DNA from: Acidobacteriota bacterium
GTDB taxonomy: Bacteria; Acidobacteriota; Thermoanaerobaculia; Gp7-AA8
Assembly: GCA_021325515.1 (NCBI GenBank)
Contig: JAJPHC010000008.1
Coordinates: forward strand, 1 to 52,219
Length of the DNA: 52,219 nt
Direction: 5' to 3'
Shown piece after piece: positions 29,024 to 49,873 of this stretch. The position numbers were made by a program, and so were the translations under genes. Below the pieces are notes generated by a model. The model was not told the origin of the DNA, made no database searches, and saw only the letters and a program-made list of their open reading frames with translations. Each line of letters begins with the position of its first letter. Position 1 is the first letter of the stretch.

Positions 29024-29635
29024 ATGACCGAAAACATCCGCCGCTTCTTCACCGTCGTCGCCAAACCACGCACCTGGACGAACCTCGCCTACATCTGGCT
29101 GGCCTTTCCACTGGGGCTGGGCTACTTCATTTTCTTCGTGACCGGCGGTGCGCTGACACTCGGCTTGTCACTGCTCTGGATCGGTCTGCTGCTCGCGGTC
29201 GCGATGGTTCTTTCGATCCGCGGGCTCGAAGCATTCGAGCGCCTGCTGTCACGCTTCCTGCTCGATGAACCGATTGCCGCTTCAGGCGAGATCAGCGGAA
29301 CGGCATGGCAGCGGATGAAGAGAATCGCCGCCGACTCCGCGACCTGGAAGGGCGCCGTGTTCCTGATGCTGAAGTTCCCCGTCGGCCTCGCCTGCTGGAT
29401 CGCGTCGGTGGTCATGCTCGCGACGTCCGCCGCGTTCATCGCCGCGCCGTTCTCGACGTATCACGGTGAAGTCGATCTCGGATACTGGACGCTGGTCGAC
29501 CCGACAGGAGGGTTCCTTCTGTCTCTCGCAGGCATCCTGATGCTGATCATCAGCCTCCACGCGCACAACGCGATGGGCGCCCTGTGGAAGGCCCTGTCAC
29601 GCCACCTGCTGAGCGCCCCCCTGGCCACCGCCTGA
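29024..29635 (+). CDS. stand-alone 'sensor' membrane-domain protein
   Basis: 203 residues with four hydrophobic helices in two pairs. The segments WTNLAYIWLAFPLGLGYFIFF, LLLAVAMVLSIRGLEAFERLL, FLMLKFPVGLACWIASVV and a last helix near residue 175 match the layout of the putative sensor domain (PF13796 type). That domain often sits at the N-terminus of actinobacterial and other histidine kinases. Here no kinase is attached or adjacent. The start ATG 29024 is divergent from 28966. A 94-base palindrome follows the stop by 3 bases. Confidence 0.72.
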   Translation: MTENIRRFFTVVAKPRTWTNLAYIWLAFPLGLGYFIFFVTGGALTLGLSLLWIGLLLAVAMVLSIRGLEAFERLLSRFLLDEPIAASGEISGTAWQRMKRIAADSATWKGAVFLMLKFPVGLACWIASVVMLATSAAFIAAPFSTYHGEVDLGYWTLVDPTGGFLLSLAGILMLIISLHAHNAMGALWKALSRHLLSAPLATA

Positions 29636-29638
29636 CCG

Positions 29639-29732
29639 TTAAGTTGGTTCGTGGGGGTCACACCTGGAAAATCAACTTAACGGGACGCCGTTAAGTTGAT
29701 TTTCCAGGTGTGACCCCCGAAAACCAACTTAA
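29639..29732. repeat. 94-base inverted repeat (45-base arms) between convergent genes
   Basis: Arms 29639-29683 and 29688-29732 pair around a GACG loop with only three imperfect positions (29650-29652). The right arm supplies the last codons and stop of the barrel gene, whose TAA is 29731-29729. The structure could act as a two-way terminator, a dispersed REP/MITE-like element, or both. Core segments are GTTAAGTTG and GGGGGTCACACCTGG. Confidence 0.9.
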
Positions 29733-31327
29733 GTGCCGGGTTGGATTCGGAGGCGGGCGGTGTACTCCTTGCTCTCGAAGCCTGCAGGGTTCTGGGAGGC
29801 GGAGTCGCTCTTCGTGGCGGCGAGCTCCAGGGCGACCGACTTCGTGAAACGGATTCCGAGGGTGCCGCCCCAGGTGAAGAAGTGATCGTTCTTCTTGCTC
29901 ACATTCCCAAGCGTGAACGACTGCAGGCCGCGCTCTCCCATCGCATGCGCATACACCGTCTTGAAGTCCTTGTGCAGATCGAGCTGCAGTGAGCTCGCGC
30001 GGAAGTTCTGCGGATCGAAGTAGCCGTTGCCCATCCGCTTGTCGTAATCGAAGTAGTGGAAGTTGACGGCGAGGTCGGTCCGCACGCCTGTCATCGGAAG
30101 CCGCCACGCCAGCGCGGCGTCGGCGCTGCGGCGGCTGTTCGAATCCGAAATATCCCAGTAACCGGCTCCAACGTTGAGCTGGAGCGCGGCAGCAGGGCGC
30201 GTCGACGCGGTGATCGAGTACGACGTCAGCGTTACGCCGCGGTCGACGCTCGTCGTCGTGTAGCGGAACGGGCGATGATCTGCCGTCAGAGCCGTCTCGA
30301 CCGAGCTGCCCGCACCGAAGACATAGACGATGCGTCCTGTCGCCTTGCTGCTGTCGTGTCCGGTCGTGCCTCTCGTCCGATCGAGGCCGGCTCGCAGGAT
30401 CAGGCGTTGCGCATGCGCAGGACGCAGCAGAAGAGACCCATAGCCGCTGTCGATCGATCCGTTCTGGTGCAGGGAGTCCTCCAGATCGTAGCGGGTGTAG
30501 CCAAACGTTAGATCCGTATTCTTCGCCGACGGGAACGCGCTCTCCACTCCCCACGAGTTCACGCGATTCCGGTCGGTGTCGTCGATGTGGTCGTACATCG
30601 TGCGCAACGTCGGAGAGCTCGCGCGACGAACTGCGCTGCGGAGCTCGACGACTTCGTCATCATTGGGGAAGCGCGTTGCAAGCTGCGTCGCGCCGCGATC
30701 CGCTGCGAATCGATCTCCCTCTTCGAGATCGAGATACGCCATCCCCATCACCGCTTCACGCCGCGCGGGGTCAACGGCCAGCACCTTGTTGTACCAGGTC
30801 CGCGCATGCGCGTCGTTCCCCGACCACGCGTAGGTCTGCGCGATGCCGAGCATCGCCTCGAGACTGTCGGGGTGCCGCTCGAGCGTCCTCTGATACTGCT
30901 GCCGCGCCGCGGCCTGATTCCCGCTCCACGAGAGCACCCGGCCGACTCCCAGCATCGCGTCGATGTTCCCCGGATCGCTCGTCTCGACCTCGCGGAATGC
31001 GGCGATCGACTTCGCATACTGGTGCGACCACGAGAGCACTTTCGCACGCTCCAGCCGCGCCTTTTCATTCTTCGGATCGATGCTGAGCACCTTCTCGTAG
31101 CGGCGAATCGCCTCGTCCCACTGCTTCTGCCACGACAGCATCATCGCGGACCGCGTGAGCGCCTGCACGTTCATCGGGTCGCGCGCCAGCACTTCGTCGT
31201 AGAGCTTCAGCGCAACATCCATCCTGCCCGCATCGAATGCAGCATCGGCCGCCGCGGTCGGCGCCGCCGTCTGCGCTGACACCAGCACCGTCGTCAGGAT
31301 GACCAGAGCGATGAGCATCGTTCTCAT
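29729..31327 (-). CDS. TPR protein with C-terminal outer-membrane barrel (YaiO/export-type)
   Basis: 532 residues with a signal peptide (MRTMLIALVILTTVLVSAQ). Residues 25-240 hold about five TPR-like repeats (AMMLSWQKQWDEAIRRYEKVLSIDP and similar units). The C-terminal 280 residues are amphipathic strands rich in Tyr/Arg/Asp (FGYTRYDLEDSL, LILRAGLDRTRG, LNVGAGYWDIS, GTLGIRFTKSVALEL), as in YaiO-like or exopolysaccharide-export porins. A TPR-plus-barrel plan resembles the export arms of PgaA and BcsC. It is the last gene of the seven-gene operon and probably carries the polymer across the outer membrane. Confidence 0.85.
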   Translation of the reverse strand: MRTMLIALVILTTVLVSAQTAAPTAAADAAFDAGRMDVALKLYDEVLARDPMNVQALTRSAMMLSWQKQWDEAIRRYEKVLSIDPKNEKARLERAKVLSWSHQYAKSIAAFREVETSDPGNIDAMLGVGRVLSWSGNQAAARQQYQRTLERHPDSLEAMLGIAQTYAWSGNDAHARTWYNKVLAVDPARREAVMGMAYLDLEEGDRFAADRGATQLATRFPNDDEVVELRSAVRRASSPTLRTMYDHIDDTDRNRVNSWGVESAFPSAKNTDLTFGYTRYDLEDSLHQNGSIDSGYGSLLLRPAHAQRLILRAGLDRTRGTTGHDSSKATGRIVYVFGAGSSVETALTADHRPFRYTTTSVDRGVTLTSYSITASTRPAAALQLNVGAGYWDISDSNSRRSADAALAWRLPMTGVRTDLAVNFHYFDYDKRMGNGYFDPQNFRASSLQLDLHKDFKTVYAHAMGERGLQSFTLGNVSKKNDHFFTWGGTLGIRFTKSVALELAATKSDSASQNPAGFESKEYTARLRIQPGT

Positions 31328-38326: not shown

Positions 38327-38407
38327 TGGATTTTCGCTTCCTGGATCTCGCTAATACTACAACCGATCGCGCGTCCGGACCTACAATTACAGAAACAGTC
38401 AGGGACC

Positions 38408-38639
38408 AGTGATCAGTGACGAGTGATGAGTGACGAGTGATGAGTTAGTGCTGAGTGCTGAGTGCTGAGTGCTGAGTGACGAGTGACGCGAGGCCCTCCC
38501 CTCAGTACTCAGCCCTCAGCACTCAGCACTCGGTACTCAGCACTCATCACTCGTCACGCGTCACTCATCACTCATCACTCGTCACTCATCACTCGTCACT
38601 CATCACTCGTCACTCATCACTATCGGTCACTCGTCACTG
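38408..38639. repeat. heptamer-repeat array forming a large imperfect inverted repeat
   Basis: Between the divergent GGDEF and kinase genes. The left arm (38408-38489) is built of GTGATGA, GTGACGA and GTGCTGA units. The right arm (38500-38639) is built of the complementary TCATCAC, TCGTCAC and TCAGCAC units. A short GC-rich centre near 38490-38499 joins them. About 30 heptamers are visible. The rest of the 327-base gap holds the GGDEF-side 5' region and a GGGGG ribosome-binding site before the kinase. No unique spacers are present, so it is not CRISPR. Confidence 0.92.
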
Positions 38640-49796: not shown

Positions 49797-49873
49797 AGGC
49801 CCTTAGCTCAGTTGGTTAGAGCGCCACCTTGACACGGTGGAGGTCAGCGGTTCGAGTCCGCTAGGGCCTACCA
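49797..49873 (+). tRNA. tRNA-Val (GAC anticodon)
   Basis: A full cloverleaf: acceptor stem AGGCCCT/AGGGCCT, discriminator A and encoded CCA (49871-49873). The D-arm is TAGCTCAGTTGGTTAGAGC. The anticodon stem CCACC/GGTGG (49824-49828 and 49836-49840) carries loop TTGACAC, so the anticodon is GAC at 49831-49833. The T-loop is GGTTCGAGTCC. Monocistronic, followed by a terminator. Confidence 0.97.

Follow-up and report, generated by a model that had tools for sequence, protein, structure and literature searches.

Within a stretch of 52,219 nucleotides from an Acidobacteriota bacterium (hereafter the window), a palindrome of 94 bases at 29639-29732 separates two convergent genes and takes in the stop codon of one of them. 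Is such a structure a transcription terminator, or is it a mobile repeat that has come to occupy the end of a gene? The first-pass annotation favored the latter, proposing an inserted REP/MITE-like element that had replaced a gene end.

A palindrome between convergent genes

The palindrome is near-perfect, as first described: its two arms (29639-29683 and 29688-29732) are each 45 nt long and 93% complementary, with three mismatches and a gap of 4 nt. The folding energy of the strand is -85.3 kcal/mol, compared to a mean of -32.7 for 200 shuffled sequences (z = -14.7; no shuffle was as good). End motifs and an alignment of 95 units (see below) resolve the palindrome into two units of 43-44 nt arranged head to head (29638-29681 and 29690-29732/3), each with its own end motifs GTTAAGTTG...CAACTTAA(C). 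The left unit (29638-29681, minus strand) directs its 3' end outward to the left and the right unit (29690-29733, plus strand) directs its 3' end outward to the right. A linker of 8 nt (29682-29689) sets the unit spacing at 50, one of the recurring classes (50, 60/61 and 71) described below.

The gene to the right (29729-31327, minus strand) encodes N-terminal TPR repeats and a C-terminal half that the first-pass annotation read as an outer-membrane barrel; the reading is putative, our own search giving a sub-cut-off match to PgaA-type TPR porins only. The claim that the palindrome supplies the stop of this gene is borne out: the protein ends ...QPGT and its TAA (29731-29729) lies inside the right arm, where it is the outer TTAA of the arm. 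To the left, a gene with the Pfam 'Sensor' domain PF13796 (29024-29635, plus strand) terminates at its own TGA (29633-29635), which starts 6 nt ahead of the TTAA edge of the element. Among the 147 genomes searched, a sample of the class, none of the 146 others yields a match to the barrel half at E<=1e-8; with no barrel relatives for comparison, a replaced end at this particular gene is conjectural. Elsewhere in the window, arrays of 7-base units at 38383-38625 (AGTGACG-like, then inverse ACTCATC-like) form long imperfect inverted repeats, positions 1-322 are a piece of a 16S rRNA gene, and a tRNA gene is located at 49797-49870.

The position between convergent genes and the very stable hairpin are what would be expected of an ordinary bidirectional terminator or a single-copy hairpin. 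However, no match to an intrinsic terminator, with its GC-rich stem followed by a T run, falls at the palindrome (the sole terminator-like match within 29400-30000 is at 29498-29514). This reading is, moreover, extremely unlikely given the genome-wide family and the transposase described next, and on the basis of copy number and the missing terminator match we rejected a single-copy terminator.

A dispersed family of inverted pairs

The genome to which the window belongs (G000; 5,377,942 bases, or 5.38 Mb, in 63 contigs) contains many copies of the palindrome arms. A BLAST search with the element returned 91 matches, both strands counted, and the core CCAGGTGTGACCCC occurs at 105 places with up to two mismatches, compared to 3 for the reversed control. 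Ninety-five units were aligned; at least five of the 10 core places outside the alignment are two-mismatch hits. At 37 of the 43 aligned positions a single base is present in 92-95 of the 95 units, and at the other six in 82-90. Units begin with (C/A)GTTAAG and end with CTTAA(C), and neither end carries a GTAG or CGTC tetranucleotide tag in this alignment. Edge positions are some bases off at C52:63811 (R), C55:124684 (R) and C51:583921 (R). A variant edge, GTTAAGTTGAGTT, is found at G000:C27:43930 L and C52:55011 R, where it gives an in-frame TGA two codons in; both are other-frame genes (see below).

Ninety-four of the units fall into 55 clusters: 29 are '-+', four '--+', one '-++' and 21 single (11 '-' and 10 '+'), although one of these 'single' units is in fact paired, unit C40:247836 having been left out of the clusters. 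The '-+' pair is thus present in 34 of 55 clusters and constitutes a dispersed inverted composite. Core spacing in the 34 pairs is 48-51 in seven, 60-61 in 20 and 71-72 in four, with one pair each at 27, 42 and 44. By eye, many pairs of the 60/61 class have a partly conserved linker in common, and linkers of the 71 class show no evident likeness. The steps between spacings near 50, 60/61 and 71 approximate one helical turn; concentration at a 10.5-nt phase gives p = 0.0005 compared to a uniform distribution with the 60/61 class counted once, a crude value that assumes independent spacings and is violated by shared descent. Core-to-core distances in two other genomes are 47, 52, 61 and 61 (pairs of G001) and 49, 50, 50, 58 and 61 (pairs of G013).

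A REPIN is a REP doublet: two inverted units forming a short, hairpin-forming, dispersed composite with a cognate RAYT. The element described here has these same features, with mobilization putative, and differs from REPINs in that its units are palindromes of 43-44 nt without GTAG, spaced near 50, 60/61 and 71.

A cognate transposase

A search for a REP-associated transposase returned seven Y1_Tnp matches in G000, one of which (G000:C40:246,911-247,228) adjoins the repeat unit. It belongs to a Y1/HUH transposase gene that is bordered by the palindrome's own unit: the RAYT ORF (L034 1462-2421, at G000:C40:246.9 kb) lies between unit copies, with one inverted unit upstream and two units downstream. 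The product of 319 aa matches NCBIfam NF047646 (REP_Tyr_transpos) at E = 1.7e-21 and 76.7 bits, slightly below the 80-bit cut-off, and matches Y1_Tnp at 34.5 bits, above the cut-off of 23. Its nearest PDB chain is that of TnpArep, 4er8 (E = 1e-4), and both an NHYH (HUH) motif and a YLVLNP motif (catalytic Tyr) are present. Relatives were detected at E<=1e-6 in 14 of 17 other genomes of the family, and all 12 members of an alignment (A1) that includes the G000 RAYT match Y1_Tnp. GGGGTC/GACCCC adjoins several of the 11 homologues for which an ORF was found (18 of 30 loci gave none). The RAYT's own TGA (L034 2419-2421) and the TAA of the upstream ORF (1336-1338) both lie inside the repeat. A second RAYT, 45% identical to the first (L032; G000:C51:602636-603490), has several repeats resembling CTGAAGGTCTGACCCCAG downstream; a second, different family, GGGGTCAG, is probably present in G000.

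In TIRYT/TIRtron elements a Y1/HUH transposase gene is likewise bordered by inverted repeats with GGGGWSAS, a motif matched here by GGGGTCAC upstream of the RAYT and GTGACCCC downstream. TIRYT/TIRtron repeats are described as able to form families in dimers, with an Acidobacteria group among them (Di Nocera et al. 2013, PMC3733652). The transposase, its flanking repeats and the GGGGTCAC motif are all in keeping with membership of the TIRYT branch, one of the branches of REP systems, as far as sequence likeness can place them; what sets the present case apart is the large, near-identical family (95 units), the edge TTAA that serves as a stop, and flanks with a polar footprint in composition. 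The TnpAREP of subclass 2.1 are characterized by a C-terminal helix-turn-helix extension, and the account of that subclass reports no REP-like sequences near its genes (PMC6006769), whereas here repeats adjoin the RAYT. Among Pfam HTH models the G000 RAYT has no match at E<=10; alignment A1 yields one match to HTH_38 (E = 0.0047) and one to Bac_DnaA_C (E = 0.18). With the GTAG/CGTC REPs of proteobacteria and others the element shares a position downstream of genes and between convergent genes, but the GTAG/CGTC tag is absent and the stop is TAA. MITEs of DDE insertion sequences are similarly short and non-autonomous with terminal inverted repeats; however, the sole transposase gene found bordered by the unit, Y1_Tnp matches having been examined, is Y1/HUH.

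The REP/MITE-like proposal is therefore largely right. Judged from its sequence, the element is best described as a REPIN-like pair. The repeat that makes up the pair is non-autonomous and of mobile type, has some 95 copies that are probably served by their own transposase, and belongs to a putative TIRYT-type REP system with a cognate RAYT.

Unit edges as stop codons

If one unit edge supplies the stop of a gene in the window, then other edges may do the same. The coding frame at 89 outer 3' ends was called from sequence 180-600 nt away, which is outside most of the compositionally biased zone described below; calls here and in background genes rest on simple codon-usage scoring rather than a standard gene finder. 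The 89 ends comprise 50 genes reading inward, 19 reading outward and 20 ends with no clear call. Thirty-five of the 50 inward genes end on the edge TAA (34 at the usual position and one a base earlier); two end at a TGA at +6 and six only after 13 repeat-encoded codons, while six have an own stop that starts 3-14 nt ahead of the edge and one has its own stop at -107. Calling the frame near the edge instead assigned 44 of the 89 ends to the TAA frame, 12 to the next and three to the third, with 28 outward and two without a call; an earlier and looser call had placed 54 of 89 on the edge TAA. The excess in the TAA frame is highly significant (p = 6e-11), with 44/89 compared to 15.6% of 4000 random positions and 7/74 background TTAA readings.

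The stops of 333 background genes (400 kb) are TGA in 191, TAG in 94 and TAA in 48. Because a T precedes TAA in just two of the 333, stops at an edge TTAA are most simply explained as derived from the element. Repeat-provided stops have a precedent, GTAG REP ends being reported often to give a TAG stop (PMC3733652), and the supply of stops seen here is an extension of that phenomenon. We also considered insertion at TTAA sites already in place, with duplication of the target. In 400 kb there are 39 TTAA, two of them at stops, and given the same scarcity of T before TAA stops the possibility was rejected; no split native stop was seen by eye on the far side of the element in the distal flanks of aligned units.

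Captured stops and replaced protein ends

Orthologues allow the acquisition of a stop to be distinguished from the replacement of a protein end. Genes were hand-picked as real-looking: of the 54 TAA-frame ends 41 were chosen, 26 searched and 16 compared, one of the latter (C13:131641 R) being counted apart from the remaining 15; from 20 further ends 13 were searched and six compared. For the 15 TAA-frame genes, 70 comparisons with orthologues among the matches listed gave 43 identical ends and 61 within two residues. The orthologues in these comparisons stop at TAG in 31 cases, TGA in 28 and TAA in 11. That proteins mostly end at the same residue, with TAA, TAG or TGA, shows that it is usually the stop codon that has been captured and not the end of the protein. 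The situation differs for genes entering the repeat in another frame. In three of the four tested, the 8-20 residues that form the native tail (11 orthologues among the matches listed) have given way to a repeat-encoded tail of 13 residues, e.g., LSWFSGVTPGKST. For the two tested genes that retain a stop of their own, 7/7 comparisons (again with orthologues among the matches listed) end alike. The notion of a replaced gene end thus fails as the usual outcome, most ends being shared with orthologues, and stands for those other-frame genes whose tails were replaced.

In G008 an 8-nt spacer separates the two stops of the convergent pair that includes YbeY (C52:55011), and in G006 the two matches lie more than 500 nt apart; in G000 there is only the element. 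The gene pair at C42:47062 has little besides the element between its members in G000, and the corresponding matches are ~260-710 nt apart in five relatives. No same-genus genome is among the comparison genomes listed. At L182 (G011), around 290-420, another hairpin repeat, GTGTCAGGTCTGGAAAAACAAC, lies a few bases past the stop of an orthologue whose G000 counterpart abuts a unit.

A strand-specific footprint beside unit 3' ends

Over the 100-150 nt past the 3' end of each unit the outgoing strand is enriched in G+T, synonymous sites included, irrespective of the direction of the neighboring gene. The G+T content of the first 100 nt is 0.601 at paired-unit ends (n = 68) and 0.565 at the 3' ends of single units (n = 21), compared to 0.504 at 5' ends (n = 21), 0.497 at convergent control gene ends (n = 124) and 0.505 at tandem ones (n = 207). 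Differences between paired units and convergent controls (p = 4e-22) and between the 3' and 5' ends of single units (p = 0.0024) are significant. Runs of G are conspicuous: GGGGGG occurs within 30 nt outward at 11/89 ends, compared to 0.09% of random 30-mers, and the same 30 nt contain 48 GGGG runs, where 4.2 are expected, and two CCCC runs. The outgoing GC skew in successive bins to 200 nt is +0.36, +0.18, +0.17, +0.04 and -0.03 for inward genes (59 ends) and +0.22, +0.16, +0.08, +0.05 and -0.03 for outward genes (28 ends); in the same bins it is -0.08 to 0 at 21 5' ends, and it is -0.10 to 0 at 174 background gene ends.

The palindrome at 29639-29732 bears the footprint on both sides. In its left flank (29538-29637, outgoing strand minus) G+T is 0.63, 0.53 and 0.58 in bins of 3-30, 30-60 and 60-100 nt, and 0.43-0.49 past 100 nt; in its right flank (29734-29833, plus) the outgoing strand has 0.78, 0.53 and 0.63, followed by 0.47-0.52. 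Extended complementarity between the two flanks of pairs is absent (0.287, compared to 0.297 for shuffled partners).

One might suppose that short spacers simply bring repeats to stops, through neutral insertion and general compaction, the composition having an unrelated cause. Median spacers are indeed short by our simple gene calls (18 nt between tandem, 23.5 between convergent and 37.5 between divergent genes), and stops supplied by repeats are already known from GTAG REPs (PMC3733652). Yet under compaction there is no reason to expect that the bias should have a polarity set by the unit and be missing from 5' ends, and we consider this explanation quite unlikely.

In inward genes, four-fold sites are C in 0.787 and G in 0.120 of cases at 0-30 nt, compared to 0.373 and 0.501 at 300-450 nt. 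Toward the unit, A at two-fold purine sites rises from 0.16 to 0.59 and C at two-fold pyrimidine sites from 0.69 to 0.97. The pattern is mirrored in outward genes, where T at two-fold pyrimidine sites reaches 0.57 and 0.75 (n = 14 and 16) compared to 0.29, although site numbers are small (19 ends, with 35 four-fold sites at 0-30 nt). Across the last 10 codons of 20 genes third positions are C in 0.74 and G in 0.11 in G000, compared to 0.36 and 0.48 in orthologues among the matches listed, to which amino-acid identity remains steady at 0.74-0.80 along the gene.

Selection on RNA offers one explanation for such changes. C-rich, G-poor transcript ends could be rut-like Rho-loading sites, with the hairpin protecting the 3' end or stalling there and synonymous codons following suit. 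For inward genes, a length of ~100-150 nt and an excess of C over G in the sense strand would suit a rut region, and an effect on translation is reported for E. coli REPs that lie near stops (PMC12306157). However, the mirror-image bias of outward genes, small as these numbers are (19 ends), means that composition tracks the DNA strand relative to the element and not the transcript. In addition, the inward strand is poor in T as well, a feature not expected as a Rho requirement, and the biased stretch is translated. Selection on RNA is accordingly an improbable cause.

The bias is confined to the 3' side, is symmetric about pairs, holds whichever way the neighboring gene reads and is missing from orthologues, features that instead suggest a process acting in place and at the level of DNA.

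A proposed footprint of processing, or choice of target

Two further accounts of the association between repeats, stops and composition are to be weighed: either the element altered its surroundings or it selected them. According to the latter, the transposase picks G+T-rich outgoing strands and stop-like sites, and both composition and stop predate insertion. The exactness of native ends in 43/70 comparisons (orthologues among the matches listed) is in keeping with this, as random insertion followed by selection would not produce it; moreover, the CGTTAA of the outer edge looks like an Arg codon with a stop after it, and orthologues among the matches listed sometimes have Arg there (5/5 at the aligned position for C51:153854 R, but in the case of C52:55011 L just 1/5 at the end, and no Arg in that of C55:39841 R). 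But suitable targets are rare. An A+C content of at least 0.80 at degenerate third positions of the last 30 codons is found in 22/50 abutting genes and 1/290 controls, a C5 run in the last 30 coding nucleotides at 19/89 element ends and in 0/333 control genes, and the two TTAA stops per 333 background genes are too few to serve as a target. The composition profile also decays away from the edge. Finally, the inward frame scores best on both sides in 16/34 pairs (some scores weak), and some convergent pairs have lost the native stop of each gene, which means that sequence has been lost and not merely interrupted. We regard targeted insertion as unlikely.

Our preferred reading, held tentatively although it is the more plausible one, is that the flank bias arose in place and marks repeated processing at the 3' end of the unit, perhaps nicking by the transposase. 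A specific version, which we put forward as a possibility with appreciably less confidence, is that the RAYT repeatedly nicks the 3' edges of units at fixed sites, that ~100-150 nt of the outgoing strand are thereby exposed to strand-biased mutation and deletion, and that synonymous codons are rewritten as the repeat is driven into neighboring stops. Under the preferred reading, the strand would be cut time and again at the 3' end of the unit, either by the RAYT or by some other enzyme that works on the extruded hairpin. The outgoing strand, holding the enzyme-linked 5' end, would be displaced or exposed, and its error-prone repair would push composition toward G and T. Small deletions arising in the same process would erode the non-coding spacer up to the stop of the neighboring gene; there, at the native stop, the TTAA edge of the element would become an in-frame TAA, and further loss would not be tolerated.

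For other TnpAREP enzymes, cleavage at CT sites located 5' or 3' of a single-stranded REP is reported to yield a Tyr-5'P link together with a free 3'-OH (PMC8266576). Unit 3' ends, ...CCAACTTAAC, contain CT, and a cut at this position would make the outgoing strand the enzyme-linked one. Whereas the TnpAREP enzymes studied in vitro are reported to cut on either side of the REP, the footprint here is restricted to one side. Deamination alone, which for the outgoing strand means C to T and A to G, is insufficient, because four-fold sites of inward genes become C and not A on the coding strand; G-to-C changes or codon selection must contribute, and the substitution spectrum is not one of pure deamination.

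A reading of TANNNT-GGGG-ATG as a leaderless promoter was dropped, though not disproved; the arrangement occurs at 3/110 ends and once in 400 kb of background.

Generality in other genomes

Other repeats allow the generality of the footprint to be assessed. The REPs of E. coli MG1655 (107 units in 500 kb) have none: G+T is 0.491 at GTAG ends (n = 25) and 0.478 at 3' ends (n = 51), compared to 0.498 at random positions. Nor is one apparent at 20 ends of the repeat family of G003, which adjoins a related RAYT (0.471, with a lean in the reverse sense over the first 60 nt), or at 19 ends of the family in G013 (0.497). Ten ends in G001 are weakly positive (0.571, compared to 0.529 further out; p = 0.03), and the RAYT of G001 is the closest to that of G000, at 57% identity. 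The negative results from E. coli, G003 and G013 indicate that the footprint is not a general mark of RAYTs but is specific to the system of this lineage. The literature that we searched yielded no report of such a polar flank footprint.

How RAYTs serve their hosts, and whether repeats that have ceased to move are still acted on by them, are open questions in the field. If recurrent processing is the correct reading, then the activity in vivo and the cutting polarity of a domesticated transposase would be readable from genome sequence, and sequence alone would reveal the place and the strand at which a RAYT, or the repair that follows it, acts. It would also document a mutational pressure that operates locally and remodels the ends of conserved genes, and would explain how one repeat came to give stops to dozens of unrelated genes while leaving their proteins mostly unaltered.
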